From: Bacteroidota bacterium
GTDB lineage: Bacteria > Bacteroidota > Bacteroidia > Bacteroidales > Prolixibacteraceae
DNA length: 43,709 bases
Assembly: GCA_023251435.1 (NCBI GenBank)
Contig: JAHEYU010000004.1
Location: forward strand, 1-43,709
Direction of reading: 5' to 3'
Both the position numbers and the translations under genes were made by a program. The notes under the pieces are model-generated. The model was not told where the DNA came from and did no database searches. It saw only the letters and a program-made list of their open reading frames with translations. Shown here in pieces: positions 796-31,672 of this stretch; position 1 is the stretch's first letter; each line of letters begins with the position of its first letter.

Positions 796-846
796 ATCGA
801 TTTTCCGCTTAATTACCTGATTGGTTTTTTGTAGCAGTCAATTGTT

Positions 847-913
847 GTCATTCATAGTCATTAAGTTGTCAGTTCAAGTCAACTTAATGACCACCTAATG
901 ACAATTAAATGAC
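847..913. repeat. Intergenic inverted repeat built from GTCATT/AATGAC words
   Basis: A perfect 12-base inverted repeat, GTCATTAAGTTG at 857-868 and CAACTTAATGAC at 880-891, is flanked by further copies of the same word. GTCATT occurs at 847 and 857, and AATGAC at 886, 897 and 908. The element can fold into a long hairpin between the corrinoid protein gene and the methyltransferase gene. It has no T-run of terminator quality right after the 12-bp stem. It may be an mRNA stability or partial-termination element, or a dispersed intergenic repeat. Confidence 0.65.
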
Positions 914-968
914 TTTTTAAGACATGAGGTAAATTTAATGATATACCAACAGACTAAAACGAACAAAA

Positions 969-2588: not shown

Positions 2589-2610
2589 AAGTACAAAGTG
2601 TTTGAATGAA

Positions 2611-2698
2611 AATTTACAATTAGACGATTTACTATTTACATTCATTGTGAAAGTGTCAACCATAAATCGTAAATTGTCAATGGACAAATCGTAAATAG
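2611..2698. repeat. Intergenic ATTTAC/GTAAAT word repeat
   Basis: ATTTAC occurs three times on the left (within AATTTACAATT, CGATTTAC and TATTTAC, 2610-2639). Its complement GTAAAT occurs twice on the right, each time joined to AAATC (2664-2677 and 2686-2698). The arms share permuted words rather than one clean stem, so several alternative hairpins are possible. The element lies between the UroD-thioredoxin gene and the homocysteine methyltransferase gene and contains no ORF. Confidence 0.5.
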
Positions 2699-2733
2699 CT
2701 CAATATTTTGCACTAACTATTAACATATTGATT

Positions 2734-3618
2734 ATGAATAAACTAATAAACGAAATAAACAAAGGTCGGGTGCTCGTTTCGGATGGCGCGTGGGGAACTT
2801 TCCTTCAGCAAAAAGGATTGAAACCTTCTGAATGTCCCGAAGAATGGAATATTTCGAGGGCTTCCGATGTTTTTGACATTGCCAAAAGTTACGTGGATGC
2901 AGGTGCCGATATGATTGAAACCAACAGTTTCGGCGGAAATTATTTCAAACTGAAAAATTATGGTTTTGAAGATCGTGTTTTCGAAATAAACAAAGCCGCC
3001 GCCGAAATTAGCCGAAAAGCTGCCGGTGCCGATCGGTTTGTGCTGGGTTCTGTGGGGCCAACCGGCAAACTGCTGATGATGGAAGAAGTTACCGAAGCGG
3101 AACTTTATGAGGCATTTAAAGAACAATCAATTGCCCTTGAAGCCGGAGGTGCGGATGCAATTGTGATTGAAACCATGACCGACCTTGAAGAAGCGCGCAT
3201 TGCGGTGAAAGCTGCCAAAGAAAATACCGGTTGCGAAGTTTTTTGCACCATGACTTTCGATAAAATCATTGGCGGCGAATACCGCACCATGATGGGAATT
3301 TCGCCCACAGAAATGACCGAAACGCTGGCAGAAGCCGGTGCTGCGGTAATCGGTGCAAATTGCGGAAACGGTATCGCCGATATGATTGGTATTGTAAAGG
3401 AAATCAGGCAGGCGAATGCGACCATCCCGATTTTAATTCATGCAAATGCCGGAATGCCAAATTATTGCGACGGAGAAACTACTTTTCCCGAATCGCCGGA
3501 TGACATGGCCGCAAATGTGAAAGAAATTACCGAAGCCGGCGCCAACATTATTGGTGGCTGCTGCGGCACAACGCCCGGTCACATTTGCAAAGTTCGCGAG
3601 GTGGTGAAAAGTTTGTGA
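2734..3618 (+). CDS. Homocysteine S-methyltransferase family protein (MetH domain-1 type)
   Basis: This 294-residue protein is a stand-alone equivalent of the homocysteine-binding barrel of cobalamin-dependent methionine synthase. The zinc ligands of the family are visible: Cys210 in GANCGNG and the adjacent pair Cys276-Cys277 in GGCCGTTP. The N-terminal VSDGAWGT segment is also typical. Zinc-bound homocysteine would take a methyl group, here most plausibly from the neighbouring methyl-corrinoid protein, to form methionine. A TTG six bases upstream is in frame, but ATG at 2734 fits the usual start of the family. MmuM/BHMT-like enzymes using other donors belong to the same superfamily, so the acceptor or donor could differ. 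The family is certain; coupling to the upstream corrinoid protein is inferred from gene order. Confidence 0.92.
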   Translation: MNKLINEINKGRVLVSDGAWGTFLQQKGLKPSECPEEWNISRASDVFDIAKSYVDAGADMIETNSFGGNYFKLKNYGFEDRVFEINKAAAEISRKAAGADRFVLGSVGPTGKLLMMEEVTEAELYEAFKEQSIALEAGGADAIVIETMTDLEEARIAVKAAKENTGCEVFCTMTFDKIIGGEYRTMMGISPTEMTETLAEAGAAVIGANCGNGIADMIGIVKEIRQANATIPILIHANAGMPNYCDGETTFPESPDDMAANVKEITEAGANIIGGCCGTTPGHICKVREVVKSL

Positions 3619-3697
3619 ATTAAAGCGGCTGGCAACTGGCAACTAGCTGCTGGAAAAAAAAGAATCAATCCTTCAGTAAATCAATACTTAAAGCTTC

Positions 3698-4603
3698 ATG
3701 GTTGTGATACCGATGCAATTGGTTACAGGCTTTCTGGGAAGTGGCAAAACTACTTTCCTGAAAAATTATCTGGAAGAATTTTCAGCAGGGAGAAAAATTG
3801 GCATCATTCAGAACGAATTTTCGGAAGTGAATGTTGACAGCCATGAACTTCGGAAAGGGAATGCTGATTTTCAAATTCTCGAAGTCAATAATGGCTCCGT
3901 TTTTTGTGTTTGTTTGCTGGGGAGTTTCATGGATTCGCTGGCCGCATTTATCGACCAGTACCAGCCCGATGAATTGATTCTGGAAGCCTCCGGAATGTCA
4001 GATCCGCTGAGTATCGGGCAAATATTGCAATCACCAATCCTGAAGGACAAAGTATATCTCGACCATGTTTGGTGCCTGGTGGATGCCCTGAATTTCGAAA
4101 AAATAAGCCGTCTGCAAATACGGGTCAATCACCAGATACGGATTGCCGATACCATCATCGTAAACAAAACAGATTTAGCTGAAAATAAGAATGATGCGGT
4201 CATTCAACGGATCAAATACCTGAACCCATTCGCAGCCGTCATGATCACCAGTTTTGCCCGTATCGATTTCACTGAACGGAAATCAGTCATGAAGTTTTTC
4301 CCTTCAGGAGAAAAGGCAGAAAATAGCCGTCCGGATCTTCAGTCGATGGTTATAAAAAGCAACCGCAAAATTTGTCCTGAAAAGTTGGATGAATTTCTGA
4401 AAGTCATTCATTCAGGTTGCATCCGTAGCAAAGGTTACATCAACTTGAGTTCAGGAGTAAAAGTATTTTTACAGGGAAGTTATGACCTGTTCACACTTCA
4501 GGAGGTGGAAGCATTTGCAGCGCCGACTGAATTTATCGTTATTGGCAATTTTTCAGGAGAACAAAATCATCAAAAACTATTCGAAAATCTTTGCGCATCA
4601 TGA
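3698..4603 (+). CDS. CobW/G3E-family GTPase, putative metallochaperone
   Basis: This 301-residue protein has the COG0523 layout. Walker A GFLGSGKTT is at 11-19, a switch region with NEFSEVNVD at about 39-47, EASGMSDP at 96-103, guanine-specificity NKTD at 156-159, and a CobW C-terminal domain at about 210-301. The metal-binding CxCC motif is reduced to C70-V-C72-L, so one Cys is missing. Family members deliver zinc or cobalt to client proteins using GTP. The likely clients here are the zinc-dependent methyltransferases or the corrinoid system of this cluster. The stop codon overlaps the start of the next gene as ATGA, which indicates translational coupling with the reactivation protein. An alternative start is ATG at 3713. 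Confidence 0.9.
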   Translation: MVVIPMQLVTGFLGSGKTTFLKNYLEEFSAGRKIGIIQNEFSEVNVDSHELRKGNADFQILEVNNGSVFCVCLLGSFMDSLAAFIDQYQPDELILEASGMSDPLSIGQILQSPILKDKVYLDHVWCLVDALNFEKISRLQIRVNHQIRIADTIIVNKTDLAENKNDAVIQRIKYLNPFAAVMITSFARIDFTERKSVMKFFPSGEKAENSRPDLQSMVIKSNRKICPEKLDEFLKVIHSGCIRSKGYINLSSGVKVFLQGSYDLFTLQEVEAFAAPTEFIVIGNFSGEQNHQKLFENLCAS

Positions 4604-5310
4604 TATATCAATTTTCATATTCTTTTGGCGAACTTACTTTAGACAGGAATTATCTGTCGGCCATGCTCGGGTTTCCCGATGGTGTTCTTCCTGAACCATT
4701 CGACGAGTATGTTGCCGAAGCAATTCATGAAGCCGAATCGCTGAGTGATATTCGCGGCGCTTTTTGTTTTCAGCAAAACAGTGAGTTTATTGCCGGCAAT
4801 AGTTGTATTTCGGTGGATGGAATCGAATTTGGAATAGGCAAAACCGTCGCCAAAGAATTGCGGAATTCCACTTCGGTTGCCTTGTTCATTTGTACAGCCG
4901 GTGAAGGAATCAGCGGGCGATCGAAAGAATTATTAACAGGTGAAAACCCTGTATTGGGCTATATTTTCGATGTTTTGGGCTCAATGATTGTTGAAACTGC
5001 CACCGACCAGCTGCAGAATGAGATCTCTAGGATTGCGAATTCAGAAGATCTTTCAATTACGAATCGCTACAGTCCGGGTTATTGCAAATGGAGCGTGGCC
5101 GACCAGCACAAACTGTTTTCATTCTTTCCGCCCAACTGCTGCGGAATTAGTTTAACCGACTCGGCATTGATGCATCCGATTAAATCAGTCAGCGGAATGA
5201 TCGGCCTCGGGAAAGAGGTGAAATTCAGGGAATATACCTGCGATTTATGCAGTCAGACTGAATGTTTTCATCGAAATCACCAAAGAGACAAGCAAAATGT
5301 TGTGAAATAG
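4600..5310 (+). CDS. MetH-type activation-domain protein, corrinoid reactivation
   Basis: This 236-residue stand-alone protein resembles the C-terminal activation domain of cobalamin-dependent methionine synthase. The signature RYSPGYCKW is at about 156-164 (RxSPGYP in MetH), followed by LTDSALMHPIKSVSG. In MetH this domain binds S-adenosylmethionine and drives reductive methylation of inactive Co(II) cobalamin. A C-terminal Cys cluster, Cys214, Cys217 and Cys222, is absent from E. coli-type MetH and could bind zinc or an iron-sulfur centre for electron delivery. The ATG lies inside the stop of the CobW-type gene (ATGA), and an in-frame TTG at 4591 is less likely. It probably rescues one or both corrinoid proteins of the window. 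Confidence 0.88.
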   Translation: MIYQFSYSFGELTLDRNYLSAMLGFPDGVLPEPFDEYVAEAIHEAESLSDIRGAFCFQQNSEFIAGNSCISVDGIEFGIGKTVAKELRNSTSVALFICTAGEGISGRSKELLTGENPVLGYIFDVLGSMIVETATDQLQNEISRIANSEDLSITNRYSPGYCKWSVADQHKLFSFFPPNCCGISLTDSALMHPIKSVSGMIGLGKEVKFREYTCDLCSQTECFHRNHQRDKQNVVK

Positions 5311-14435: not shown

Positions 14436-16376
<1,941 letters not shown>

Positions 16377-16396
16377 GCGGTGCAATTTATACATAG

Positions 16397-18310: not shown

Positions 18311-18343
18311 TAAAAAGAAAAAAGGTAGATTCAACAATCTACC
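18311..18343 (-). terminator. Rho-independent terminator of the sensor/corrinoid operon
   Basis: Read on the minus strand, GGTAGATT (18343-18336), a GTTG loop and AATCTACC (18331-18324) form a perfect 8-bp stem followed by a T-rich run of TTTTTTCTTTTT. It lies 250 bases after the last gene of the nine-gene operon. The remainder of the 417-base gap 18176-18592 has no gene that I can support. Confidence 0.75.
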
Positions 18344-18350
18344 CTTTCTC

Positions 18351-18400
18351 TAAACCTAACTAAACCTAACTAAACCAATAAAACTAATCAAACCTAACTT
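18351..18400. repeat. Tandem TAAACCTAAC decamer tract
   Basis: TAAACCTAAC occurs twice in tandem (18351-18370), followed by three degenerate decamers ending in AACCTAACTT. On the plus strand the tract runs straight into ATGAAATGC at 18401, which opens an eight-codon ORF ending at 18427. Similar unstructured AACC/AAACT-rich leaders precede some Bacteroidota outer-membrane protein genes, as I recall, so this may be the relic of such a leader. On the minus strand it lies in the 3' region of the operon just before the terminator. Confidence 0.6.
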
Positions 18401-18592: not shown

Positions 18593-20848
18593 TCAAACGA
18601 ACCTTTTAATTGGAATGGTGAAGAAGAAATCGGAATAATTTTCAGGTTCCGATTCAACCCAAATAGTACCTCCAAGCAATTCGACCAGGTTTTTAGAGAT
18701 AGCCAATCCTAATCCATTTCCACCGTATTTACGAGTTTTGGTATTATCAATTTGCCTGAATCGCTCAAAAATTGCCTGAAAATATTCTGATCTAATGCCA
18801 ATTCCTGTATCTTTTACATGAAATCTAACTAAATTACCCTTCACTTGAAATCCTATTTCAATGTATCCTTCATTGGTAAATTTAATTGAATTACCTATTA
18901 AGTTATTAAAAATCTGCATGATGCGGTATTTGTCGCTTTCGATTTCGACATCGGATTCATTATTTGACTCATCGAGGCGGAGCTGAATTCCTTTTGTTCT
19001 TGCCTTGTGACCAAATTCTGCCAATAGTTCAGTCAGAAGTGATTTTGCCGAAATACTCACATTCCGTAGTTTCAACTGACCAGCTTCAAGCATAGAAAAA
19101 TCCATTATGTCACTGATAATCAGCAGTAGATTGTTGCCGTTATCAACGATATGCTTTATGAATTCAGTTTTTTGTTCATCCTCAAAATCGGGATCACTAA
19201 GTAGTTCAGAGAAACCAATAATGCTATTTAGCGGAGTGCGAATTTCGTGCGACATATTCGCAAGAAAGGCAGATTTTAACTGGTCACTTTCATTGGCTTT
19301 TGCAAGCGCAAGAATTAACTCGGATTCCATTTGTTTGCGGAAACTTATATCTTCCTTAATTGCTATATAGTTGGTAATTATACCCTTTTCGTTTTTTATT
19401 GATGTAAGCGTTACCGATTCCCAGAATACCGATCCATTTTTTCGTTTATTAATAAGTTCCTTTTTCCAAATATTGCCTGAAGAGATTGTTTCCCATAAAT
19501 TTGAATAAACATCGGAAGGCATTTCGTACGATTTCAGGATACGTGCATGTTGTCCGATAATTTCTTCAAAAGTGTATCCTGTTGCCTCACAAAGTTTGGG
19601 ATTTACATATTCAATAATCCCCTTAAGATCAGTTATTTCTATTGAAACAGGACTTTGTTCAATCGCCTTTGATAATTTCAGTATCTTATCCTGTGCTTGT
19701 TTTTGTTCAGTTATCTCACGACCAATTCCGACTAATCCAATTATATTTCCAAGTTCATCAGAAAATGGAATTTTAGAAGTTAGTAACCATCTTTCACTTC
19801 CTGCTTTATCGTAGAATATTTCTTCTCTGTTAATTACCGATTTTCCGGTATTAATAACAAGTAAATCGTCCTCGTAACCTCGCTGAGCTATTTCAGTATT
19901 GTAAAGTTCCAAATCAGTTTTTCCAAATACTTCGGCTTCTGATTCGGCTCCAATAAAATCGAGATCCAGCCGGTTTGCAATTATTTTGCGGCACTCTAAA
20001 TCTTTAACATAAATTGTAACCGGTAAATTGTCAATCAAAGTGCGCAGCAATTTTCTTTCACGACGCAATTCTTCTTCCGCTTTTTTCCTTTCAGTAATAT
20101 CGTTTATTAATACATGTTGTGCATTGCGTTGATTGAAAATAATGGCATGTGAAATGATTTCAACTGTTATGAGTTCTTGATTTTTTTTTCTGTGAATAAC
20201 TTCACCTACACTATTATAAGTGCCACCGATTGACTCTATCGTATCAATAAGTCTTTGAATTTCACCGGGAGGGCGAATATCTTTAAGTGTCATCGATAAA
20301 AATTCATCTTCGGTATAGCCATAGTGCTTGATCGCAGCTTCGTTTACTTCAAGAAAAGCCAATGTTTCAACATCGAAGATCCACATGGGTTGCGGATTGT
20401 TATGAAACATATACCGATATTTGGCTTCATTCAGTTTGATTGTTTCGTATGCTTCAATTCGTTCTTTGCGGATTTTGCTTTGGTCGAGTGCATTTAAAAC
20501 TGAAGATCCCAGACGTTTTAGCGAGTCTTTCAGTACATAATCGGTAGCACCGGCTTTCATGCATTCAACGGCGGTATCTTCGTTGATAGAGCCTGTTACA
20601 ACAATGAAAGGAGTTAGCGGACAAATTTCTTTTGCTAGTTTTAGCGCGGAAAGTCCGTCGAAAGTTGGCATATTATAGTCGGAAATAATTAAATCCGGAA
20701 GAAAAGATTGTATTAAATCCAGGTAATCTTTTTTATTGTCAACGATTTTGAACCTGGAGTGGGGCAATACCTTTTTTATTTCCCTTATATTGAGTTCTGC
20801 ATCGTGAGATTCATCCTCGACTATTAATATGTTATAGTGTTGATTCAT
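18593..20848 (-). CDS. Receiver-PAS-PAS-PAS hybrid sensor histidine kinase
   Basis: This 751-residue cytoplasmic protein has an N-terminal receiver (about 5-125, phosphoacceptor Asp57 in ISDYNMP, Lys in YVLKDSL). Three PAS domains follow, at about 145-260, 275-385 and 392-510. HisKA carries the phospho-His in MSHEIRTPLN, and the HATPase has DTGIGIR and GGNGLGLAIS boxes. With the receiver at the N-terminus, the kinase is probably controlled by another kinase of the operon as well as by its PAS ligands. It is the last gene of the operon, 41 bases after the stand-alone receiver gene, and is followed by a strong terminator. It has no membrane helix. Confidence 0.93.
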   Translation of the reverse strand: MNQHYNILIVEDESHDAELNIREIKKVLPHSRFKIVDNKKDYLDLIQSFLPDLIISDYNMPTFDGLSALKLAKEICPLTPFIVVTGSINEDTAVECMKAGATDYVLKDSLKRLGSSVLNALDQSKIRKERIEAYETIKLNEAKYRYMFHNNPQPMWIFDVETLAFLEVNEAAIKHYGYTEDEFLSMTLKDIRPPGEIQRLIDTIESIGGTYNSVGEVIHRKKNQELITVEIISHAIIFNQRNAQHVLINDITERKKAEEELRRERKLLRTLIDNLPVTIYVKDLECRKIIANRLDLDFIGAESEAEVFGKTDLELYNTEIAQRGYEDDLLVINTGKSVINREEIFYDKAGSERWLLTSKIPFSDELGNIIGLVGIGREITEQKQAQDKILKLSKAIEQSPVSIEITDLKGIIEYVNPKLCEATGYTFEEIIGQHARILKSYEMPSDVYSNLWETISSGNIWKKELINKRKNGSVFWESVTLTSIKNEKGIITNYIAIKEDISFRKQMESELILALAKANESDQLKSAFLANMSHEIRTPLNSIIGFSELLSDPDFEDEQKTEFIKHIVDNGNNLLLIISDIMDFSMLEAGQLKLRNVSISAKSLLTELLAEFGHKARTKGIQLRLDESNNESDVEIESDKYRIMQIFNNLIGNSIKFTNEGYIEIGFQVKGNLVRFHVKDTGIGIRSEYFQAIFERFRQIDNTKTRKYGGNGLGLAISKNLVELLGGTIWVESEPENYSDFFFTIPIKRFV

Positions 20849-20889
20849 AGCAGTATAAATATACTTTTCAGCAGTTTTGTCAGTATTTT

Positions 20890-21336
20890 TTACCTGAAAG
20901 GTGGTTCGTTCACTAAAAGCCAGTAAAGTCCCGCATGCGACATGGAAGTCACAAAATCGTCGAAATTTACTGGTTTAACCACATAGCTGTTAACTCCCAA
21001 TTCATAAGCCTTTTTTATGTCAGGATCTTCACGCGACGAGGTGACCATGACTACGGGCAACATTTTAGTTTGTGGATTTGACCTTATTTCGCGAAGGACT
21101 TCAAGTCCGCTTATTTTTGGTAATTTAAGATCAAGAAAAATGACTTTTGGCGGATTTGTAATATTTCTGGAGGCGTATTTCCCTGTACAGAAAATAAAAT
21201 CGAGTGCCTCAGCGCCATCTTCGGCAATATAAAACTTGTTGGCCATGTTGTGTTTCCGGAGGGCGCGTAAAGTCAGTTCGGCATCCTGGGGGTTGTCTTC
21301 TACGATGAGTATTTCTACAACGTTCAGATCTTCCAT
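20890..21336 (-). CDS. Stand-alone response regulator, Rcp type
   Basis: From ATG 21336 the protein has 148 residues and is a single receiver domain. The acidic pair is in VEDNPQD, the phosphoacceptor is Asp69 in IFLDLKLPK, followed by VMVTSS and VVKPVNFDDF. The extra length and C-terminal YWLLVNEPP are typical of the Rcp1/cyanobacterial-phytochrome-partner class. There is no output domain, so it should relay phosphate or act by binding. The upstream in-frame extension to 21396 is hydrophobic and not expected in this family. It lies between two kinases of the same operon, which are its likely partners. Confidence 0.93.
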   Translation of the reverse strand: MEDLNVVEILIVEDNPQDAELTLRALRKHNMANKFYIAEDGAEALDFIFCTGKYASRNITNPPKVIFLDLKLPKISGLEVLREIRSNPQTKMLPVVMVTSSREDPDIKKAYELGVNSYVVKPVNFDDFVTSMSHAGLYWLLVNEPPFR

Positions 21337-21450
21337 TCGAAAAAGATTAATTTGTTTTATGAGATGTATAAATATAATGTTTTTTGCCTGAAACACATAT
21401 TCTACAGAACTAATTTCAATTACATGACTACGAACTGATAAATATACCTA

Positions 21451-23574
21451 TTAAGCCGGTAGAGAAAAATAGAATGTGGCGCCTTTCCCTACTTCGCCTT
21501 CAGCCCAGACCCGACCTCTGTGTCTTTTTATTATTCGTTGTACAATTGCCAATCCTACACCGGTTCCTTCAAACTCGTTCATACTGTGCAACCGGTGAAA
21601 TACGCCAAATAACTTATGTACATATTCCATATTAAATCCCACGCCATTGTCTTTTATGTAATAAACAATCTCATTTTGGTCAGGATAGGAGCCGATATCG
21701 ATTTGTACATCCTCATTTTTTGAAGAATATTTGAGTGCATTCGAAATGAGGTTTATCCATACTTGTTTTATCATGTTCTTATCGCCTGATGTGTGCGGAA
21801 GGTCGTGTATAAGAACATTTTTGTGCGATAGATCCTGTAGTGCTTCAAAATCGGCAATAACACTTTTTACAAGGCTATCCATGTCAATTTTCGAATGGTT
21901 AAACTCACTCCTGATGAGCCGTGAAAATGAAAGCAGATCATCAATCAGTTGTCCCATTTTCGTGGCATTCGATTGAATGATGCCACAGATCCGCTTGCCT
22001 TCATCGTCAAGAACCTTTTCATAATCTTCGACCAAAATACTTACAAAACCATTGATTGCCCGCAACGGTGCTCTCAAATCGTGAGAAACGGAATAACTAA
22101 AGGCTTCGAGTTCTTTATTGGCAACTTCGAGTTGTGCTGTACTGCGCTGAAGTTCATCAGATTTTAGGTTTAGATCTTCAACAAGATTCAATAATGCTGC
22201 CTCGTTGTTTAACAGTTCGTGGCTTCTCCTTTGCAGTTCGTTTGTTCGGTCAATTACTTTTTGTTCGAGTTCTTCATTTAGCTTAATAATTTCTTCTTCA
22301 GCTATTTTTCGGTCGGTAATATCCCTGAAATTAATCACAATGGCTTCGACACTCGGGTCGGAAAGTAAGTTGCTAAAGGTACTTTCAACCCATCTCCACT
22401 CGCCGTTTTTATCGCCGAATCTGTATTGTAAGGTAGAAACCTCCGATGGATTTTGAATCAGATTTTGCAATAGGGAAAGCACTAAAGGCAGATCGTCCGG
22501 ATGGGTCAATTCCATTGGATGGGCAGTAACTTCATCGGTGTTTGAATATCCGAACATTTTACGGGTTGATGGACTTATAAATTTAAAATTACCATCAGCA
22601 TTTATAAGTACAATTCCGTCGGGAGCCTTCTCAATCAATGCCTGGTAATGTTGTCCCATTCGGATAATTTTCTGTTCTGTTTCCTTGCGTTCCGAAATGT
22701 CGCGTACAAAACCAAGTATCATTTCCGAGCCATCTATTTCAATCAGGCTGGTGCTTATTTCAACAGGAAATGAACTTCCATTTTTATGACGGTGAACTGA
22801 TTCAAAGGTTCGGCTTTCACCGAGATTCATTTCATGAAATTTCGATTTTAATTTTTCATTCTCATTAAATTCGGCATCTAAATCCGTGATTTTCAATTTT
22901 AGCAGCTCATCGCGGGTATAACCCAGACTTTTGCAGGCTTGTTGATTCGTATCAATGATATTGCCTTCTATATCGGAGAGGTACATTGCGTCGGTGGCCT
23001 GTTCGATGATTGTGCGGAATCGTTTTTCGCTTTCTGAAAGCTCTCTGGTGCGGGCTTCGACCAGGCTTTCCAGATTATGCATTATAGTCGAATTCCGAAG
23101 TTCTATTGCCAGTACTCCTGAAAGTGCATCGAACGAATCGAGAATTGACTGAATATTATGAATATCGAAAATGTCGTGTATCGCAAGTATTCCAACGCGC
23201 TGATTTATAGATTCGAGCGGAACAATAATCGTATGTTGACCACTAAACCCGCTAAGTAGTTGTTCTATATTATTGCCGTCTTTTTTATGCTGGAAAAGGG
23301 TTGTAGTATGAAAATCGTGACTGGCAATGGCAATTTCATTCCATTTGTTCAGATTAAAATCGTTTAGATTACGAGCCGGACAAATTCCCAGCAGATTGTG
23401 ATGATTCTCTGAAATTTCTGAATTGTGAGACAACAATATAACCAACCTGCAACCAACCAATTCTCTTATCTGGGAGGTGATGTATTTTCCCAGTTCAGCA
23501 GGATTATCGGCCATACTGAGAATATTTTTCAGTATATCGAGTACAAGGTAGTTTATCGCGTTGTCAACCTTCAT
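21451..23574 (-). CDS. GAF/PAS sensor histidine kinase
   Basis: This 707-residue soluble protein has an N-terminal GAF-like domain (about 8-165) and PAS domains at about 185-300 and 308-425. A coiled coil (about 425-485) leads to HisKA with His498 in SVSHDLRAPL and a HATPase ending at 707 (DNGVGFN, GTGVGLAIV). The SVSHDLRAPLRAI type is the class often paired with Rcp-type receivers, such as the one encoded next. Its ATG overlaps the stop of the DUF1638 gene by four bases (ATGA), so kinase and DUF1638 protein are translationally coupled. That is direct evidence that the corrinoid module and the signalling genes are expressed together. Confidence 0.93.
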   Translation of the reverse strand: MKVDNAINYLVLDILKNILSMADNPAELGKYITSQIRELVGCRLVILLSHNSEISENHHNLLGICPARNLNDFNLNKWNEIAIASHDFHTTTLFQHKKDGNNIEQLLSGFSGQHTIIVPLESINQRVGILAIHDIFDIHNIQSILDSFDALSGVLAIELRNSTIMHNLESLVEARTRELSESEKRFRTIIEQATDAMYLSDIEGNIIDTNQQACKSLGYTRDELLKLKITDLDAEFNENEKLKSKFHEMNLGESRTFESVHRHKNGSSFPVEISTSLIEIDGSEMILGFVRDISERKETEQKIIRMGQHYQALIEKAPDGIVLINADGNFKFISPSTRKMFGYSNTDEVTAHPMELTHPDDLPLVLSLLQNLIQNPSEVSTLQYRFGDKNGEWRWVESTFSNLLSDPSVEAIVINFRDITDRKIAEEEIIKLNEELEQKVIDRTNELQRRSHELLNNEAALLNLVEDLNLKSDELQRSTAQLEVANKELEAFSYSVSHDLRAPLRAINGFVSILVEDYEKVLDDEGKRICGIIQSNATKMGQLIDDLLSFSRLIRSEFNHSKIDMDSLVKSVIADFEALQDLSHKNVLIHDLPHTSGDKNMIKQVWINLISNALKYSSKNEDVQIDIGSYPDQNEIVYYIKDNGVGFNMEYVHKLFGVFHRLHSMNEFEGTGVGLAIVQRIIKRHRGRVWAEGEVGKGATFYFSLPA

Positions 23575-24146
23575 TTTGTCATCTTTTTTAGGCCACTTTT
23601 GATGGCATTTTCCAAATGTATCAAATCAATTTCAATTACTTCAACGGGTAACGAAAAATAGCTGGAAATGTCTTCGAGCGTTTTAAACGGCACTTCATGA
23701 ACACCTGTATTCACATAAATTAATTTTTTATGCAGTTCGGTCATAAACTGTTCTGCAAGCTTTTGTTCCTGAAATCCCAGCAATTCTTTAAAAATCCGTT
23801 CCCATTTCAGCGTCCATTCAGGTAAAAGAAAAAAAGCACCTTCTCTCCGGAGTTTTCTGTAGGTTTCTTTTCCCAGAAAAATCTCCACACAATTTAAGCC
23901 GTTTACACGCTCTATCAATCCTGAATTTTCTTGTTGAATCATGCGTGAATGACAATCTCCGTAACAGAATAAGCAATCGGGTCTGATCAATTTTTCAAGC
24001 ACCTGATTCAACTCCTGCGGGTTCATGTGCAATTCAGAATCTACAAAGGTAAACGGTATGTTTAGTTTCCCTTTTTCGATCAGAAATTCGATTTCATGTC
24101 TGAAAATACTACATGCGATAACGGTTGATTGCGATTCTTTGTCCAC
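23571..24146 (-). CDS. DUF1638 family protein of a corrinoid methyltransferase module
   Basis: This 191-residue protein starts at GTG 24146, six bases after the methyltransferase gene. The DUF1638 pattern is clear: IACSIFRHEI at 10-19, VDSELHMNP at about 35-43, LFCYGDCHSRM at 59-69, and NCVEIFLGKETY and FFLLPEWTLKW further on. Conserved Cys12, Cys58, Cys61 and Cys65 could bind metal or a cofactor. DUF1638 genes tend to sit next to MtaA-type and MtbC-type genes in anaerobes (from memory), but the biochemical role is not known to me. The stop overlaps the next kinase gene as ATGA. Family call is firm and function unknown. Confidence 0.85.
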   Translation of the reverse strand: MDKESQSTVIACSIFRHEIEFLIEKGKLNIPFTFVDSELHMNPQELNQVLEKLIRPDCLFCYGDCHSRMIQQENSGLIERVNGLNCVEIFLGKETYRKLRREGAFFLLPEWTLKWERIFKELLGFQEQKLAEQFMTELHKKLIYVNTGVHEVPFKTLEDISSYFSLPVEVIEIDLIHLENAIKSGLKKMTK

Positions 24147-24152
24147 TTTAGA

Positions 24153-25163
24153 TTATGAGTTTTTAATAATATTGGCTATCACCTTTAAGTTTTCAAGCGG
24201 GGTGTCAAACGGAATGTCGGCATTCGACGAGGCAAAAATAAAATGCCTGTCGTCTTTGCGGTTTTCAATGATATTGTTGGTCCATTTTTCGATGATTTTT
24301 GGAGTGGCTTTCCATAGTTGTGGACCATTTATATTTCCGAAAATGGTCAGGTTGTTTCCCACAATTTTTCTGGTTTCTTCAAAGCTGTCTTTAGGCGAAA
24401 TAACCACTCCAGCCAAATTTGGAAGTTGCGGATATAAATCAAGGAATGGAATAATATTGGGGCCACCATGATGGAAGATAATTGGACCGTTTATTTGTGC
24501 ATAGCTTTCTTTAAGCACCGGAATCGTATTTTCTTCAGCAATTTTCCGGGTAATAATTGTTGGATTCGAGAAGTTGGCCAATGTTACAATACAGGCCGCT
24601 CCGGCCGTTAGAAGCGCATTGGCAAACTGCACAAAAAAACGCGATGTTAGTTCCATTATAAGACTGGCTTCCTTCGGTTGAAAAAGTAAGGTTTCGAGCC
24701 AGCCTTCAATACCCATTATCAGGGCGGGGAGTTCTGTTGGTGAAGTACATACTGCGGCAACAGGTATTTGCCCTTTGTATTGCTCCGAAAGTAATCGTGT
24801 ACTTTCAATAAGATATATCAGGCTCGGATGATTTTCGAGATCGGGCATTTGGAGCGATGAAATTCCGGAGTGATCAGTAATTGCCGGTTTTTTTAGATTC
24901 GGAGGATTATTACCTGAATAAATGGATACAGATCCGAACGACTCGGCTTCCTTCACTATTGCAAACGGAGAAAACAGGATGTCGGGTTCAATTTCATTTA
25001 CAACAGCTATTTGACCTTTAAGGTATTTTTCCGGATCGGAATAGTATTCTGGAACCAGGTAGCCGGTTAGTTTTGCGCCATAAAGTGAAGTGGTGAGCGT
25101 AAATGGTGTCCGATCGACCGGATTTCCCATAATGGTGCCAAAAACTCGTTCGATGGATTGCAT
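24153..25163 (-). CDS. UroD-superfamily methyltransferase-like protein with altered metal site
   Basis: From ATG 25163 the protein has 336 residues, the usual length for MtaA/UroD proteins; a longer reading would overlap the preceding gene out of frame. NPVDRTPFTLTTSLYGA at the N-terminus and DIPFDTPLENLKVI at the C-terminus place it in the superfamily. The zinc motif HxC...C is not intact: the first site reads FH231-H232-G-G, with Gly where Cys is expected, and the C-terminal PGCD equivalent reads SNAD. It follows the corrinoid protein gene by four bases, so the two surely work together. It may demethylate a specific substrate using another metal set, or act as a sensor of a methyl donor. 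Confidence 0.85.
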   Translation of the reverse strand: MQSIERVFGTIMGNPVDRTPFTLTTSLYGAKLTGYLVPEYYSDPEKYLKGQIAVVNEIEPDILFSPFAIVKEAESFGSVSIYSGNNPPNLKKPAITDHSGISSLQMPDLENHPSLIYLIESTRLLSEQYKGQIPVAAVCTSPTELPALIMGIEGWLETLLFQPKEASLIMELTSRFFVQFANALLTAGAACIVTLANFSNPTIITRKIAEENTIPVLKESYAQINGPIIFHHGGPNIIPFLDLYPQLPNLAGVVISPKDSFEETRKIVGNNLTIFGNINGPQLWKATPKIIEKWTNNIIENRKDDRHFIFASSNADIPFDTPLENLKVIANIIKNS

Positions 25164-25167
25164 AAAA

Positions 25168-25839
25168 TTAGTTTTTGATCGTAAGTAATAATTCTGAAAA
25201 TAGCGCCGGTACTTGTGTTGCATTACTGCTGGTTCCATCGCCGCCAACTTCGGCGGTCAGTTCGGGCCGCACCTTAAAAATAGCCCCTCCAACTGCCAGT
25301 TTTATTTTATCCTGAAGATTTCGGCTATCAATTTCTTCACGTACTTTTCTGATGTTAATTGCGGTGGTGTACATCATTGCTGAAACCCCGATAATTGGAG
25401 CCTGATATTGAACTGCAGCATCGACCATTTCGGCAGCTGTAACATCGTTTCCCAGATCGTAAACCTGCCAGCCGCTTGCCTGAAGGAAGGTAGCTACCAT
25501 TTTGCGTCCGAGTGAATGAAAATCATCTTCGATATTTGCCAAAACAACCGGTATTTTATTTATGGTTGTTTTCGACTGCCAGTCAGAAGTTTGCAATGCA
25601 TTTTGGAGGACATCCTCCGTTATTTTTGCTGCCACGTACCCTTGCGCCAGCGATAACTTTTCTTTCGACCACATTTCTCCGATTTCGATCAAAACAGGTT
25701 CAAGAATTTCGTTGATAGCAACGAAATAACCTGTTTCCTCCGAAATTTTATCAATCAGGTGCACTGCATCAGCTCGATGAGCCCCAATGATCAGCTCGGT
25801 GAGTGAATTTCTGAATTCGTTTATTTCGGCTTCTGTCAT
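25168..25839 (-). CDS. Second corrinoid protein (B12-binding, MtbC-like)
   Basis: This 223-residue protein has a helical cap (about 5-90) with the conserved LEPVLIEIGEMWSKEKLSLAQ stretch, then a cobalamin-binding domain (about 95-223). The axial-ligand motif DxHxxG is intact as D106-F-H108-S-L-G111, so it should bind a corrinoid base-off. GGAIF and the preceding strand match the nucleotide-loop part of the pocket. It is only distantly similar to the corrinoid protein at 127-795. It lies 38 bases after a membrane PAS sensor gene and 4 bases before the methyltransferase-like gene, in the middle of the sensor-kinase operon. It may carry methyl groups or serve as the sensory cobalamin subunit. 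Confidence 0.93.
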   Translation of the reverse strand: MTEAEINEFRNSLTELIIGAHRADAVHLIDKISEETGYFVAINEILEPVLIEIGEMWSKEKLSLAQGYVAAKITEDVLQNALQTSDWQSKTTINKIPVVLANIEDDFHSLGRKMVATFLQASGWQVYDLGNDVTAAEMVDAAVQYQAPIIGVSAMMYTTAINIRKVREEIDSRNLQDKIKLAVGGAIFKVRPELTAEVGGDGTSSNATQVPALFSELLLTIKN

Positions 25840-25877
25840 TTCTGTTGTTTTTTGTTGTTTTTAAGATATTCAGTTGT

Positions 25878-27701
25878 TTAGTTTTTCGATAATAGTTCCA
25901 GTTTTTCTTCCAATGCTTTTATCTGATTTTTTAATTCAACCATTCGCAATTCGCGCCCTATAAATAGCTTATTCATTCGGGCAAGTTCAATATTTTTAAT
26001 TTCCAACTCCCTGGTGCGTTCAATTACGCGTTCTTCAAGTTCTTCGTTGAGCAGGTTTATTTTATTCTCCGCTTTTTTACGTTCGGTAACATCCTCACCA
26101 ATACTGGCTATGCCCGAAATCGATCCGTTTGTCAGACGTTGGGTAACATTGCTCCAAACGATGTCTAATTCTTTTCCCGATTTTGTTCTGATCGAATTCT
26201 CAAATCGTGGAGTGATGTTTCCGTTTCTAAACCCATCGATAAATATTTCTTTGACTTGTGAATTAGTGCCGGGAATCATCATGTCAAACCAATCTTTACC
26301 AATCATTTCTTCATGTTTATAGCCTGTAAGTTGAAGCAGATAATCGTTGCAGAATGTAATCTTTCCATTTGTATCAAGAATAATGGAGATGAGATTTACT
26401 TTTTCTAGCAACTCGCGAAAGCGAATCTCCGACATTATCAGCTTTTCTTCTGCAAGTTTTTGTTCATTTATATTTCTAACCGCCCCGTATATTCCTGACA
26501 AGCAGTTATTTTGTTCGTCCCATACGGGGTGCGCAAAAATCTGTACCCAAACAATTTCACCATTGCGGTTAATGGTTCGGAGCTGACTTGTGGTTTCTTC
26601 ATTGTTTCGTAATCGGGAAATATCAATGTCATCAATCGTATGATCTTCGGGAAGTATGGATGCTCGCCAACCGCCCCGATCTTTAAACTCCTCGACCGAG
26701 TAGCCCGAGATTGATTCGAAAGCACCGGCAACCCAATCGAGGTTCAGAGAGCCATCAGGCATCACTTTTGTCGAAAATGTGTAGTCGGTAGCCACGCTCG
26801 AAATCAGGCGGTATCTTTCTTCGCTTTTGCGAAGTGCAATCTCGGCTTCCTTGCGATAGGCAAAAATATGGTCGATATCATTACCAATTTTACGGGCAAT
26901 TCTTAACAAGATAAAACCAAATATAAAAACTGAAAGAATGGTCACCAATGTCGATACAAAAACGTGGTCGTTAAAGTATTGAGAAATAAATGCATCGACC
27001 CATCCGGAAATCACAATTAAAAACAGTGTAACCGGTAGAAAGTTGCGCATCAATCGGGCTCTGACCGATTCGCCAATAAACAATTTCATAGGGTAATGCT
27101 GCATTCCAAATCCAAAGAAAATGCCGGTAAACAAAAAAGTAAACGCTATAGATGTAGTAAATGCGGGGGGAATAATGTCTTGCCCATAAAACAGTGGTGT
27201 TCCGTAAAAATAACCCATCTCGAGTACGAAGGCAACCAACATTCCGAAGAAACTTAGGAGTATTGCCATTTTGTGCCATTTCCCCGATGGATTGGTAATT
27301 GTAAGCAACGAAATTGTGCTGATAAGAAATAGCCCGATTGTAAATGGCGACATCCGGGCCAATATGAAATCATCCGAAAAATTGTCGGGAGTACCAAAAA
27401 TTCGTTCAATACCAATAGGATATCCCAAGAGAGAATCGAATAATACTACAATATGAAATGCTAAAATTAGCAATAACGAAACTTGTACCTGCCTGTAATT
27501 TTTAGCTTTCTTTAAAATAATTATTGTTAAAGCACTCAATAAAATGAAAGATATGGCAGTTGCGGGCGCCATCGGAATATAATTTTCACCAATACTGGCA
27601 AACGATAAATTCTCAACAATCCAGCCAATCAATGCCAGAGCGCCAATAATTATCACAATTAAAAGAGCCTGTACCGATATTTTCTTTTGAAGTGTTTCCA
27701 T
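25878..27701 (-). CDS. Polytopic membrane PAS sensor lacking a kinase domain
   Basis: This 607-residue protein has about eight transmembrane helices in residues 10-275, forming a MASE-like membrane sensor. Two PAS domains follow, at about 290-410 and 418-540, and a long coiled coil (about 545-600). It ends there without HisKA, HATPase or any other output domain. The gap to the next gene is 38 bases and contains no remnant of a kinase, so the protein is not simply frameshifted. The terminal coiled coil (ARMNKLFIGRELRM) looks like a conserved ending of kinase-less PAS proteins. It probably pairs with the 7-PAS kinase encoded 23 bases upstream or another kinase of the operon. Confidence 0.88.
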   Translation of the reverse strand: METLQKKISVQALLIVIIIGALALIGWIVENLSFASIGENYIPMAPATAISFILLSALTIIILKKAKNYRQVQVSLLLILAFHIVVLFDSLLGYPIGIERIFGTPDNFSDDFILARMSPFTIGLFLISTISLLTITNPSGKWHKMAILLSFFGMLVAFVLEMGYFYGTPLFYGQDIIPPAFTTSIAFTFLFTGIFFGFGMQHYPMKLFIGESVRARLMRNFLPVTLFLIVISGWVDAFISQYFNDHVFVSTLVTILSVFIFGFILLRIARKIGNDIDHIFAYRKEAEIALRKSEERYRLISSVATDYTFSTKVMPDGSLNLDWVAGAFESISGYSVEEFKDRGGWRASILPEDHTIDDIDISRLRNNEETTSQLRTINRNGEIVWVQIFAHPVWDEQNNCLSGIYGAVRNINEQKLAEEKLIMSEIRFRELLEKVNLISIILDTNGKITFCNDYLLQLTGYKHEEMIGKDWFDMMIPGTNSQVKEIFIDGFRNGNITPRFENSIRTKSGKELDIVWSNVTQRLTNGSISGIASIGEDVTERKKAENKINLLNEELEERVIERTRELEIKNIELARMNKLFIGRELRMVELKNQIKALEEKLELLSKN

Positions 27702-27724
27702 TCTCTAATCTAATTGTTTAATAA

Positions 27725-30700
27725 TCAAACCTGTTTCAATGTGAAAGAGAATGTGCTCCCTTTCCCTTCCTCGCTTTCAACCCGAATGGTTCCACCGTGT
27801 TTTTCAATAAATTCCTTGCATAAAATCAGGCCTAAACCTGTTCCTTTTTCATTTTCGGTACCTCGTTTTGTAAAGTTTGAATCAACTTTAAAAAGCTTTT
27901 CAATGTCTTCCTTATTAATTCCGGTACCTGTATCTTTTACCGAAATTTCAATTTCTCCAACTCCTGATTTTGCAGTTACCTCGATTTTTCCATTGGCTGG
28001 TGTAAATTTTAAAGCATTCGAAATCAGGTTCCGCAGAATGGTTTTCAGCATTTCCTGATCGGCCAGAATAATCTTTTGTTCGGTGATATTGTTGATAACA
28101 GATACCTTTTTCCGGTTTGCTTTCTCCATATTCAGCTCTGTTACTTCGCTAATCAGTTTCTTTAATAGAATCGGTTCCGGATTAAATGTGATTCTGGATT
28201 GCTGGATTCTGGCCCAATCGAGCAGGTTCTCCAACAACTTATAGGTATTGCCCGAGGTTGAATGGATAATATCGGAATACTGTATTATTGTTTCAATATC
28301 AAGGTCTTTTGCCTCGTCTTTCAGTATTTCGCTTAAGCCCAGAATGCTGTTAAACGGCGTTTTTAGGTCGTGGGCAATAATCGAGAAAAACTTGTCTTTA
28401 GTTGCAATTAATTCCTGTAATTCGGCAGAATATTTATGAAGTTGCATTTCTGCTATTTTCCGATCGGTAACATCGCGTGAAATGCCTTCATGGTAAATAA
28501 TTTTTCCTTGTTTGTCTTCAACATACCAACCGTGATCTTCTATCCAAACTGCCGATCCGTCTTTCTTTCTTAGCGGATAAACATCAAGTTCTCCCGGATT
28601 TAATTTCAGCACCAAACTTTCACGATCCGATGGTTTAAAATACAGATCCTTATTGATATCAATTGCCATTAATTCTTCTTTGCTGCTGTATCCAAGAATT
28701 TTTACCATTGCCGGATTTACTTCAACAAATTTGCCTTCAGGAGTGCTTCGGTAAACACCATCGGGCATCGATTCAATAAGGGTTCGGTATTTTTTCTCGC
28801 TAACACGGAGTAATTCTTCTGCTTGTTTTCGTTCGGTTATATCCCGAAAAACACCAAAAGTGCCTGCAAATTTGCCTTCATCGTTTAATTGGGGAGTCGC
28901 TGTTATGAGTAAATTTTTAATTTTTCCGTCAGGGCACATAATGTCAATTTCGTAGGTCGATCGTTTGTTTTTTGATCGTTTCCCCGATTCCTGATTCAGG
29001 CGTTCAAGATGATTTGGAGATATGAATTTTCGAAGATTTTGACCCGTCAGTTTCCCCGGTTCAATCCCAAAAATAATTTCGGCAGCTGGATTGACGAAAA
29101 TAAAATTCTCATCCGGATCAACCAGCCCAACGCCTTCACCTTGGTTTTCAATTAGTAATCTGAATCGCTTTTCGCTTTCTATGAGTGCTTTCTCTGATTG
29201 TTTTCTGTCAGTAATATTCCTGAAAACACCCTGGATAACCGGAATTCCATTGATGTGAATACGGTTAGCCATTATTTCGACCGGAATCTCTGTTCCATCG
29301 GAGCAGCTAATCAGATTTTCGTGAGATTGAGCTTTAAGATCAGTTTTTTGCCTGCTTGCATCTATATCGAACTTTTCTTTCGAATAGCCTATATTTCGTT
29401 TCGGATGAATATCAGTTTGATGTAATCCAATAATTTCATTCAAAGGCTTTTTCATTAATACCGAAGCTGCCGCATTCGCATCGATGATAATTCCTGTTTT
29501 GGCATCGGCCAGCAGAATAGCATCAGGAGAACCTTCAAAGAATGACCGGTACCTTTCCTCACTTTCCTTGAGTGACTGTTCTGCCATTTTTCGTTCGGTT
29601 ATATCAACAGCAACGCCAACCAATCCAATGATTTCTCCATTTTCATCCTGAACGACCGATGTAGAAAGTGATATAGGAAAATCGGTACCATCTTTTCGTC
29701 TGTTCACGATTTCGCCAACCCAACCTGCGTCAGCAGTAATTGTCAAAATCTGATTTACTATCTCCGGATCATTTTTCGGTGAACGGACAATTGAAATGTC
29801 CATTCCAATAAGTTCGCTTTCATCAGTATATCCATAGGTTTTTATAAATGCGTCATTCACAAAAAGAATACGATCATTTGTGTTGGTTATGCTGACACAT
29901 TCGTTGATGCTTTTTAAGGTGTGGGCTATCAGTTGCAGTTTTTGTTCTGCCTTTTTTCTTTCGGTCACATCCCTGAAATTCCATACTCGTCCAATAGGCA
30001 CCCCGTCTAATTTCTGTGGGCACGAAAAACGCTCCAAAATCCGGCCATCTTTCAATTCTATAATGTCAAAACTTTCCAATTCCGGATTTTCATAAAGGTA
30101 TTTTACCTTGGAAACAAATAGATCCGGATCTTTTAACTGGATTAAAACTGATTCAATTGCGACACTATCTTTCCCCGATTGAAGAACTTCTTCGGAATGA
30201 TTAAATATTTTACTGAATTGTTTGTTATAGCTTATTATTTTTCCAAAATGATCCACAACCAATATCCCGTCAGCGGTTGAATCGAGGGTGGCCTGCAATA
30301 GCGACAATGAAAGTCTTAATTGTTCTTCGGCCAACTTTCGTTCAGAAAGATCTCTGATAGTTCCCTCAATTCCAATAACCTGACCAGATTCGTTGATTAT
30401 AAAATGAGAATTTACAGATCCCCAAACTAATTGATTGTTTTTGCCTTTTAACAAAACTTCAAAGTCGTTGACTTCCCCTTTTTCAGTAATAATATTAATC
30501 AGCTTTTTCCGGTCATCTGGATTGTGGTAGAATTTATCAATTGGCTGTCCAATTATATCAGCATGAATATATTTGGAATACTTCTCAATTGAAGGACTAA
30601 TTTCTGTTATAATTCCTTCTAAATCGGTTCGGTAAAATACATCCTGAACGTTTTCAAATATCTTTTTGTACTTAGCTTCAGCATCAATATATGCTTGCCT

Positions 30701-31135
30701 GTTTTTCTTTAGTTCTTTAATTTCTTCGTTTACCGATATATTACGGATCAGAAATTGCAAAAATTGATGCTTGTTAATATATATTGAAGACAGGATGACG
30801 TGTGCTTCGAATTCTGTTCCGTCAGTCTTTACAAATCTCCAATTAAATTTTTGAGTGTATTTTTTGTTGGCCGAAGTTAAAATTTCAGTGGTCCGAGATT
30901 TCGAGTAAATTCCATCTGGCTGAACTTCAGGACTTAAATCGAATGGAAACCTGCCTGTGATTTCATTTTTTGATGCGAATCCAAATGTCAGTAATGCAGC
31001 TTCGTTGCATTCAATTATTTTTGAATCCTCGGTAAAGAATATGGCATCACTGGCATTTTCGAAAAGAATTTGTGAAAGTTCATTGCCGGCAAATAAGCTT
31101 ACAAAGTGATTTTGGTCTGAATCTTTTTGTTCCAT
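27725..31135 (-). CDS. Seven-PAS sensor histidine kinase
   Basis: From ATG 31135 the protein has 1136 residues; a strong GGAGGT five bases before this ATG fixes the start. No membrane helix is seen. Seven PAS domains in tandem cover about 18-890, most ending in the DITERK-type motif. HisKA follows with the phospho-His in IIAHDLKTPFNS, and the HATPase has DTGTGIN and GTGLGLILCK boxes. Such long PAS arrays integrate several redox, gas or ligand signals. It follows the globin gene by 99 bases and precedes the kinase-less PAS sensor by 23 bases. No cofactor (haem or flavin) can be assigned from sequence by eye. Confidence 0.93.
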   Translation of the reverse strand: MEQKDSDQNHFVSLFAGNELSQILFENASDAIFFTEDSKIIECNEAALLTFGFASKNEITGRFPFDLSPEVQPDGIYSKSRTTEILTSANKKYTQKFNWRFVKTDGTEFEAHVILSSIYINKHQFLQFLIRNISVNEEIKELKKNRQAYIDAEAKYKKIFENVQDVFYRTDLEGIITEISPSIEKYSKYIHADIIGQPIDKFYHNPDDRKKLINIITEKGEVNDFEVLLKGKNNQLVWGSVNSHFIINESGQVIGIEGTIRDLSERKLAEEQLRLSLSLLQATLDSTADGILVVDHFGKIISYNKQFSKIFNHSEEVLQSGKDSVAIESVLIQLKDPDLFVSKVKYLYENPELESFDIIELKDGRILERFSCPQKLDGVPIGRVWNFRDVTERKKAEQKLQLIAHTLKSINECVSITNTNDRILFVNDAFIKTYGYTDESELIGMDISIVRSPKNDPEIVNQILTITADAGWVGEIVNRRKDGTDFPISLSTSVVQDENGEIIGLVGVAVDITERKMAEQSLKESEERYRSFFEGSPDAILLADAKTGIIIDANAAASVLMKKPLNEIIGLHQTDIHPKRNIGYSKEKFDIDASRQKTDLKAQSHENLISCSDGTEIPVEIMANRIHINGIPVIQGVFRNITDRKQSEKALIESEKRFRLLIENQGEGVGLVDPDENFIFVNPAAEIIFGIEPGKLTGQNLRKFISPNHLERLNQESGKRSKNKRSTYEIDIMCPDGKIKNLLITATPQLNDEGKFAGTFGVFRDITERKQAEELLRVSEKKYRTLIESMPDGVYRSTPEGKFVEVNPAMVKILGYSSKEELMAIDINKDLYFKPSDRESLVLKLNPGELDVYPLRKKDGSAVWIEDHGWYVEDKQGKIIYHEGISRDVTDRKIAEMQLHKYSAELQELIATKDKFFSIIAHDLKTPFNSILGLSEILKDEAKDLDIETIIQYSDIIHSTSGNTYKLLENLLDWARIQQSRITFNPEPILLKKLISEVTELNMEKANRKKVSVINNITEQKIILADQEMLKTILRNLISNALKFTPANGKIEVTAKSGVGEIEISVKDTGTGINKEDIEKLFKVDSNFTKRGTENEKGTGLGLILCKEFIEKHGGTIRVESEEGKGSTFSFTLKQV

Positions 31136-31140
31136 AATAA

Positions 31141-31146
31141 ACCTCC
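31141..31146 (-). promoter_or_regulatory. Unusually strong Shine-Dalgarno for the seven-PAS kinase
   Basis: GGAGGT on the minus strand is spaced five bases from the ATG at 31135. Nearly all other genes here lack a Shine-Dalgarno sequence, as usual in Bacteroidota, so this site stands out. It decides the start against the longer reading from 31213. Confidence 0.7.
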
Positions 31147-31234
31147 GAATTGATGTATAAATATGGTAAAAAAATCGCAACAAATAAGAATACAACAAAT
31201 GCGGGGGGCACAAAAATATTTACAAGAACATGTT

Positions 31235-31672
31235 CTATGATGATTCATTGGTATTTACCATCCAGAAAGAGAAAACATTCAGGTAGTCCCAGAACGATTT
31301 TTTTAGTTCCAAAGGCAAATCAAGCTTCGAAATAACCTGACTGTAACAATCTAACCATACAATTCTTGCTTCGGGTGTTATTTTGAAAGGAGCATGACGT
31401 TTGGCCAACATTGGTTTGCCTCTGTTCTCGTTAAAATATGGGTGTCCGCCGCAAATCTGAATAAAAAAATCTGACGACCGCTGCTTGGCTTTGTCCAAAG
31501 CTTCTTCAATCCTGGGAAATAGATGTTTTATTTCACTAATGCTTAAAAGATCATAGTGATCGCTCACCAGCTGGCGAATTCCTACTTCTTTAAGTACTTT
31601 CAGAATTTCAGGAGAAGGAATGGTGACAGGTGGCCTTTGTCCAAATTCATATTGACTGATCGAAAAATCCAT
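31235..31672 (-). CDS. Truncated haemoglobin (globin)
   Basis: From ATG 31672 this is a 145-residue globin. The group II truncated-haemoglobin pattern is visible: HYDLLS in helix B with Tyr40, CGGHPYFNENRGKPML, then RHAPF with the proximal His93, and EARIVWL with the Trp at helix G. A longer reading from 31744 adds a hydrophobic tail not expected in this family. Globins of this type bind O2, NO or H2S. It is the first gene of the operon with sensor kinases and corrinoid genes, so it could supply, scavenge or report a gas ligand that affects the corrinoid or the PAS proteins. No promoter of good quality was found upstream. Confidence 0.85.
   Translation of the reverse strand: MDFSISQYEFGQRPPVTIPSPEILKVLKEVGIRQLVSDHYDLLSISEIKHLFPRIEEALDKAKQRSSDFFIQICGGHPYFNENRGKPMLAKRHAPFKITPEARIVWLDCYSQVISKLDLPLELKKSFWDYLNVFSFWMVNTNESS

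Follow-up and report, generated by a model that had tools for sequence, protein, structure and literature searches.

A corrinoid–methyltransferase cassette as a putative sensory head for interchangeable signalling outputs

In three-component corrinoid systems, such as the O-demethylases and the Cdm chloromethane system, a corrinoid protein is combined with a methyltransferase I, a zinc-free form of which has been described for chloromethane (PMC13222342). The mec cassette of dichloromethane degraders also unites a corrinoid protein with an MtaA/CmuA-family methyltransferase, beside a two-component system (PMC9768040). Here we analyse a related locus in a 43,709-bp stretch (the window; G000:C14:1-43709) of a 5.73-Mb draft genome from the Bacteroidota. 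Within an array of nine minus-strand open reading frames (ORFs; 18593-31669), genes for a corrinoid-binding protein (CorrP), a UroD-superfamily methyltransferase-like protein (UroD) and a DUF1638 protein directly precede a histidine kinase. Unlike the three-component systems, this cassette has no second methyltransferase, and the next gene encodes a kinase, a GGDEF or an HD-GYP protein. It also differs from mec, whose kinase has a PocR domain and which holds a methyltransferase II (MTII) and a transporter, DUF1638 being unnamed in the accessible part of that paper.

MtsD and MtsH are fused corrinoid/methyl-transfer proteins and may offer the closest parallel to regulation through a protein of this kind. 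H-NOX and NosP accessory sensors are separate cytosolic haem proteins that sense gas and hand the signal to a kinase; they share with the arrangement proposed here a separate sensor feeding a kinase, but use haem rather than an enzyme pair with a corrinoid. In Methanosarcina, MtsD and MtsH are named regulators and the kinases MsmS and RdmS are tied to methyltransferases, with sensing proposed to involve haem/corrinoid or cysteine in proteins without an H-box; the accessible parts of these papers do not describe a conserved three-protein head with exchanged outputs (PMC11784639, PMC11619418). DUF1638 stands beside a corrinoid protein in the split methionine synthase of Phaeobacter inhibens, where it is tied to B12 reactivation, but that system is metabolic, has a RamA-like partner and, in the accessible text, no named kinase (PMC5764234). 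CarH and other B12-binding light receptors use a B12 domain as a sensor with varied outputs, but no methyltransferase partner is named in the part consulted (PMC11796333) and CorrP lacks the CarH signature. A type 1 mlp cluster would contain several MtaA-like His-Cys-Cys proteins and Ram/RACE, whereas the nine genes hold one UroD without Cys ligands and no activase family. In the literature searched, which mostly did not extend to subscription papers, we found no description of a corrinoid–methyltransferase sensory head.

Sequence comparison indicates that the kinase following the window cassette (21451-23574) is a resident kinase that has given up its original membrane head in favour of the cassette's. 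Residues 162–707 are 73% identical (~550 aa) to a 5TM-type kinase in a cassette-free congener locus (L072), and the kinases of two further loci match at 69% from residues 169 (L077) and 177 (L076). The first ~165 residues instead align with the starts of cassette-following kinases in other families and phyla, the junction falling in the linker after a GAF-like domain. GAF is not among the Pfam domains of the window kinase, and the head is labelled GAF because homologous heads in L151 and L183 score as such; HisKA and HATPase_c are both present, as expected of a two-component histidine kinase. The same composite is found in a second species of the genus (G002, locus L017; 75% identity over 707 aa to the window kinase) and is therefore not an assembly artefact of one draft. 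In G002 the 5TM-LYT piece persists upstream as a kinase-less ORF, with 52% identity to the head of the L072 kinase. Between the window and the Ignavibacteriae locus L038, identity is 67% for CorrP, 57% for UroD, 64% for DUF1638, 46% for the GAF head and 24% for the kinase core. Across 15 complete loci, distances of the head parts correlate with one another at 0.48–0.69 and with the kinase core at 0.16–0.49, the contrast being clear for UroD (0.16) and GAF (0.30) and weak for CorrP (0.35) and DUF1638 (0.49).

The cassette recurs far outside the strain. A contig scan with the UroD alignment returned 13 loci, including one Ignavibacteriae and one Geobacteraceae record, and when 344 genomes of the order were searched with a UroD profile, 21 of them yielded a total of 24 matches, 23 of which were taken in (G1008 left out). 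DUF1638 was found in 5 of 395 genomes of the window's phylum and in 62 of 247 genomes of a second phylum, that of the Geobacteraceae record, where 82 of the 83 matches listed were covered by 80 new regions plus L040 (a partial one in G639 was left out). Rows with a UroD above 250 bits of the cassette profile (42) were counted as cassettes; removal of the duplicates L035, L036 and L221, and of L131, which has no CorrP before UroD and no kinase found, left 38 loci from Bacteroidota/Ignavibacteriae and the second phylum. CorrP is present in 36 of these, the other two being cut by a contig edge, and DUF1638 in 35.

A signalling protein follows, or is fused to, the cassette in 35 of the 38 loci. 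Its output is a histidine kinase domain in 28 loci (27 in one count, to which L199 was added), a GGDEF domain in one (L040) and HD-GYP in one (L151); of the remaining five, L227 has a PAS/GAF protein cut by the region end, and L019, L020, L029 and L157 show the head alone before the contig ends. All seven second-phylum cassettes (L040, L151, L152, L156, L157, L158, L183) precede or are fused to signalling proteins or heads. Of the 77 non-cassette DUF1638 rows, L196 and L236 were set aside as relatives of the cassette whose UroD is cut or decayed; of the 75 that remained, 74 belong to the second phylum and one to the phylum of the window. None of the 75 has a same-strand histidine kinase domain within 4 kb downstream, a count that includes some contigs ending within 4 kb and uses a profile blind to GGDEF and HD-GYP; one (L176) has a same-strand kinase upstream, and opposite-strand kinases lie near four (L132, L155, L175, L184). 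Four weak UroD matches (L237-L240) have neither DUF1638 nor a kinase among the neighbours listed.

Fusions point in the same direction as this neighbourhood. DUF1638 and a kinase form one protein in the window genome's own second array (L021:7949-9661, on C87) and in L196, L229, L230 and L231, and DUF1638 is joined to a GAF-PAS-PAS-HD-GYP protein in L151 and to UroD in L232; a UroD–kinase fusion in L236 was left uncounted, as its frame resembles an internal deletion. A tree of 96 DUF1638 rows accommodates the 22 signalling rows with 2 label changes, against a shuffled mean of 20.1, although long branches leave the placement of L021 and L196 unsure. The second array (L021; G000:C87:1-20000) is a further corrinoid–kinase array, in which a CheB-CheR-PAS protein accompanies two corrinoid proteins. 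Elsewhere, a single protein (L126:4840-7776) combines DUF1638 with a hydantoinase-like ATPase and is possibly a one-piece corrinoid activator; in L159, DUF1638 lies between CorrP and a RACo gene.

All 21 complete CorrP rows keep the B12-binding motif DxHxxG, two further rows of the 23 being truncated. CorrP scores below the NCBIfam cut-offs for MtbC/pyl_corrinoid (85.9 against 350 and 88.4 against 215.3 bits). A structural model of UroD (pLDDT 94.4) best matches a methyltransferase in the PDB (4ay8, TM 0.89), ahead of HemE structures. In the alignment, the HxC zinc motif falls on H232-G-G234, one column off the invariant H231, and the second Cys position is A315; 0 of 25 rows have Cys at this second site, and five L040-type rows carry a Cys near, not at, the first. 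UroD has no His-Cys-Cys site and stays below the NCBIfam cut-offs for the methylcobamide:CoM methyltransferases MtaA/MtbA (102.4 against 244 and 77.3 against 400 bits), and a role as a thiol-type second methyltransferase is unsupported because the Cys ligands are missing. Loss of Cys ligands has been reported for O-methyltransferases of the UroD superfamily (PMC10418091). DUF1638 scores 85.8 bits against a curated cut-off of 27 (PF07796); across cassette and non-cassette rows alike, three cysteines (C12, C65, C86) do not vary and H40 hardly does, a pattern suggestive of a metal site. In Foldseek, the DUF1638 model (pLDDT 94.4) finds no PDB fold match below E 1e-3. On the plus strand, window 127-5310 holds a second corrinoid cluster, composed of a corrinoid protein, an MtaA-like UroD fused to thioredoxin folds, a homocysteine S-methyltransferase, CobW and a B12 activation domain, the last being a Met_synt_B12 protein at 4591-5310.

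A head that stays conserved while its outputs change, and that has displaced the original sensor part of a kinase in the array, is what a sensory module would be expected to look like, and a sensory role for the cassette is well supported by the comparisons above. We consider it reasonably likely that CorrP, UroD and DUF1638, usually together with a GAF-like domain, act as a single cytosolic sensory head on interchangeable outputs, which probably reports the methylation or redox state of protein-bound corrinoid. In the window, the cassette head would replace the membrane head, so that the resident PAS histidine kinase answers to a corrinoid methyltransferase complex. UroD would demethylate a small compound and transfer the methyl group to the cobalt on CorrP, the donor being more likely an O- or halogen-methyl than a thiol because the His-Cys-Cys site is gone. 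DUF1638, which has relatives that function in corrinoid reactivation, would engage CorrP depending on whether the cobalt is methylated, Co(I) or Co(II), and hand that state to the GAF head; phosphate would likely pass to the lone receiver and the receiver-PAS kinase next door. A methyl-transfer readout is suggested by the chemistry of the families, and the sequences supply an intact B12-binding motif and a predicted methyltransferase fold beside the head–body exchange, the varied outputs and the fusions. The fuller version is more tentative, possible rather than probable: half of a corrinoid methyltransferase reaction would have been retained for sensing, and the methylation state of protein-bound cobalt would be the signal, read by the Cys/His protein DUF1638 and passed by the GAF adaptor to kinases or cyclic di-GMP enzymes, in a head that moves between outputs and would constitute a new class of sensory input.

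Several observations weigh against the sensory-head reading. DUF1638 was not detected in 3 of the 38 cassettes (L225-L227), and a GAF-head profile built from these loci matches only 22 of 38, to which Pfam adds a GAF in L225 and a GAF_2 in L156. Two loci of one genus (L233, L234) have CorrP-UroD-DUF1638 and no signalling gene, and in L200 a kinase lies directly upstream only, the next downstream one being ~5 kb away. The head-part correlations (0.48–0.69) overlap the part-versus-kinase-core range (0.16–0.49), UroD residues at the zinc site vary between cassette subgroups, and a RACo-type activase (PF14574) is absent from the genome. As to layout, L225, L226 and L227 have CorrP-UroD followed by a GAF/PAS signalling protein, with a contig edge preceding UroD in L226; the cassettes without a signalling gene span L233:4457-6935 and L234:3116-5748, with an amidohydrolase upstream in L233.

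One alternative, which we judge unlikely, is metabolic: on the pattern of mec, the operon would encode a demethylase along with kinases that regulate it, and the enzyme would feed methyl groups into metabolism. Neither a second methyltransferase nor a transporter lies among the nine genes, and the missing RACo counts against it as well; in its favour, the B12 motif is intact, a methyltransferase fold is predicted and two-component genes beside corrinoid methyltransferases are known from the mec cassette (PMC9768040). A metabolic reading is possible above all for L233 and L234, which have no signalling genes; it fits poorly with a cassette head that replaces a kinase sensor domain, with outputs that include cyclic di-GMP enzymes and with DUF1638 fused to kinases. 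The initial annotation had allowed both directions, the module sensing for the kinases or the kinases governing its use. Head exchange and varied outputs favour the first and disfavour the second.

The W-x9-EH motif, which is the CarH-type signature, occurs in 0 of 23 CorrP rows (two of them truncated), and no helix-turn-helix (HTH) family is encoded by the nine genes; with signature and HTH output both missing, a CarH-type photoreceptor was rejected. The absent signature also speaks against a broader proposal, namely a corrinoid sensor without methyl transfer, in which the cobalamin on CorrP would respond to light, oxygen/redox or cobalamin supply, with UroD serving as a scaffold. That UroD has no His-Cys-Cys site would suit this proposal, as would the published B12-domain photoreceptors with varied outputs (PMC11796333), but UroD retains a methyltransferase fold in the model and a methyltransferase I can be zinc-free (PMC13222342), and we regard it as improbable. 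The genome is rich in kinases (104 HATPase_c matches in 5.7 Mb), but a neighbourhood that arose by chance or is peculiar to one lineage is very improbable, being already contradicted by two-phylum conservation, by the fusions and by signalling neighbours at 35 of 38 cassettes against 0 of 75 downstream kinases at non-cassette DUF1638 genes.

The remaining genes of the window array (Table 1) lie outside the cassette. The initial annotation had described a globin-headed operon of nine genes, and its gene families and intergenic gaps (99, 23, 38, 4, 6, -4, 114 and 41 bases) were reproduced from ORF ends and domain matches. Judged by this spacing alone, the nine genes may form one transcript. At the position of the reported terminator, a stem with a T-run lies at 18351-18316; as 16 terminator-like sites were counted across the scanned region and 13.2 in shuffles, its 16-pair length is all that sets this stem apart. 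The start codon is GTG in DUF1638 and, at 25163, ATG in UroD. For the membrane PAS sensor, a hydropathy scan gives 11 overlapping segments where eight transmembrane helices had been counted, and the protein matches its L072 counterpart at 64% (285 aa) and 41% (431 aa). The lone receiver is a possible phosphate acceptor.

Table 1. Features of the nine-gene array in the window
Feature	Coordinates	Strand	Remarks
Truncated haemoglobin	31235..31669	-	Bac_globin 1e-16; genus-core gene outside cassette
7-PAS histidine kinase (HisKA/HATPase)	27725..31135	-	Resident array gene; congener counterparts exist
Membrane PAS sensor without kinase domain	25878..27701	-	Resident array gene; Pfam, PAS only; hydrophobic N-terminus
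CorrP, corrinoid-binding protein	25168..25839	-	Cassette component 1; B12-binding 3.3e-22, B12-binding_2 1.5e-06; DFHSLG motif
UroD-superfamily methyltransferase-like protein	24153..25163	-	Cassette component 2; URO-D 5.9e-51
DUF1638 protein	23571..24146	-	Cassette component 3; PF07796 3.9e-24
GAF-like kinase head, residues 1-165	23080..23574	-	Cassette component 4; aligns with other cassette-kinase heads
Kinase body PAS-PAS-HisKA-HATPase	21451..23046	-	Resident kinase, recipient of head
Lone receiver	20890..21336	-	Response_reg 1.2e-20; resident array gene; counterparts L072, L073, L075, L076
Receiver-PAS histidine kinase	18593..20848	-	Resident array gene; congener counterparts
Intrinsic-terminator-like stem and T-run	18316..18351	-	Consensus scan; 3′ of array

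Comparison within the genus indicates that the nine genes are not one ancestral unit and that the cassette sits within a resident array. The globin is present in 18 of 23 genus genomes, the window genome included, whereas a DUF1638 protein search of 22 congeners matched only G002 and G020; a weak match in G041 (E 4.3e-4) was dropped, being unlabelled in the wider region. Wider regions around the globin were compared in 14 congeners, and in none did CorrP, UroD or DUF1638 receive a blastp label. Four of them (L072, L073, L075, L076) carry the globin, a PAS kinase, one or two further PAS genes or kinases, a receiver and a receiver-PAS kinase, with no cassette; the array is shorter or fused in L077, L078, L080, L084 and L085, reduced to globin and a single fused kinase in L079 and to globin alone in L082 and L083, and the L074 and L081 regions run into contig ends. 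Across the window, L017, L072, L073, L075, L076, L077, L084 and L085, the PAS kinase that follows the globin ranges from 642 to 1136 aa, a variation among congeners that suggests PAS gain and loss. The globin, a genus-core gene mostly found without the cassette, was thus rejected as a component, and the globin-headed operon does not hold as a unit. The gene order does recur outside the strain, in G002, where the cassette again lies inside the globin/PAS array; there the array lacks the lone receiver, and its PAS gene without a kinase domain belongs to the 5TM-LYT type. In G020, cassette and globin are on different contigs. The association of corrinoid genes with kinases is supported: it is conserved well beyond the strain, and some DUF1638 proteins are fused to kinases. 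Elsewhere in the window, a TPR-like protein (TPR assigned by eye) with a poly-Gln run is encoded at 14436-16394.

Together, the window and L072 kinases provide a natural domain-swap pair, in which one kinase body carries either a membrane head or a corrinoid head. If the sensory reading is confirmed, cells would use B12 methyl-transfer chemistry for sensing rather than feeding; methyl transfer on vitamin B12 would serve as an information device and DUF1638 would gain a role. It would also caution against equating every corrinoid-UroD-DUF1638 cluster in anaerobe genomes with methylotrophy.

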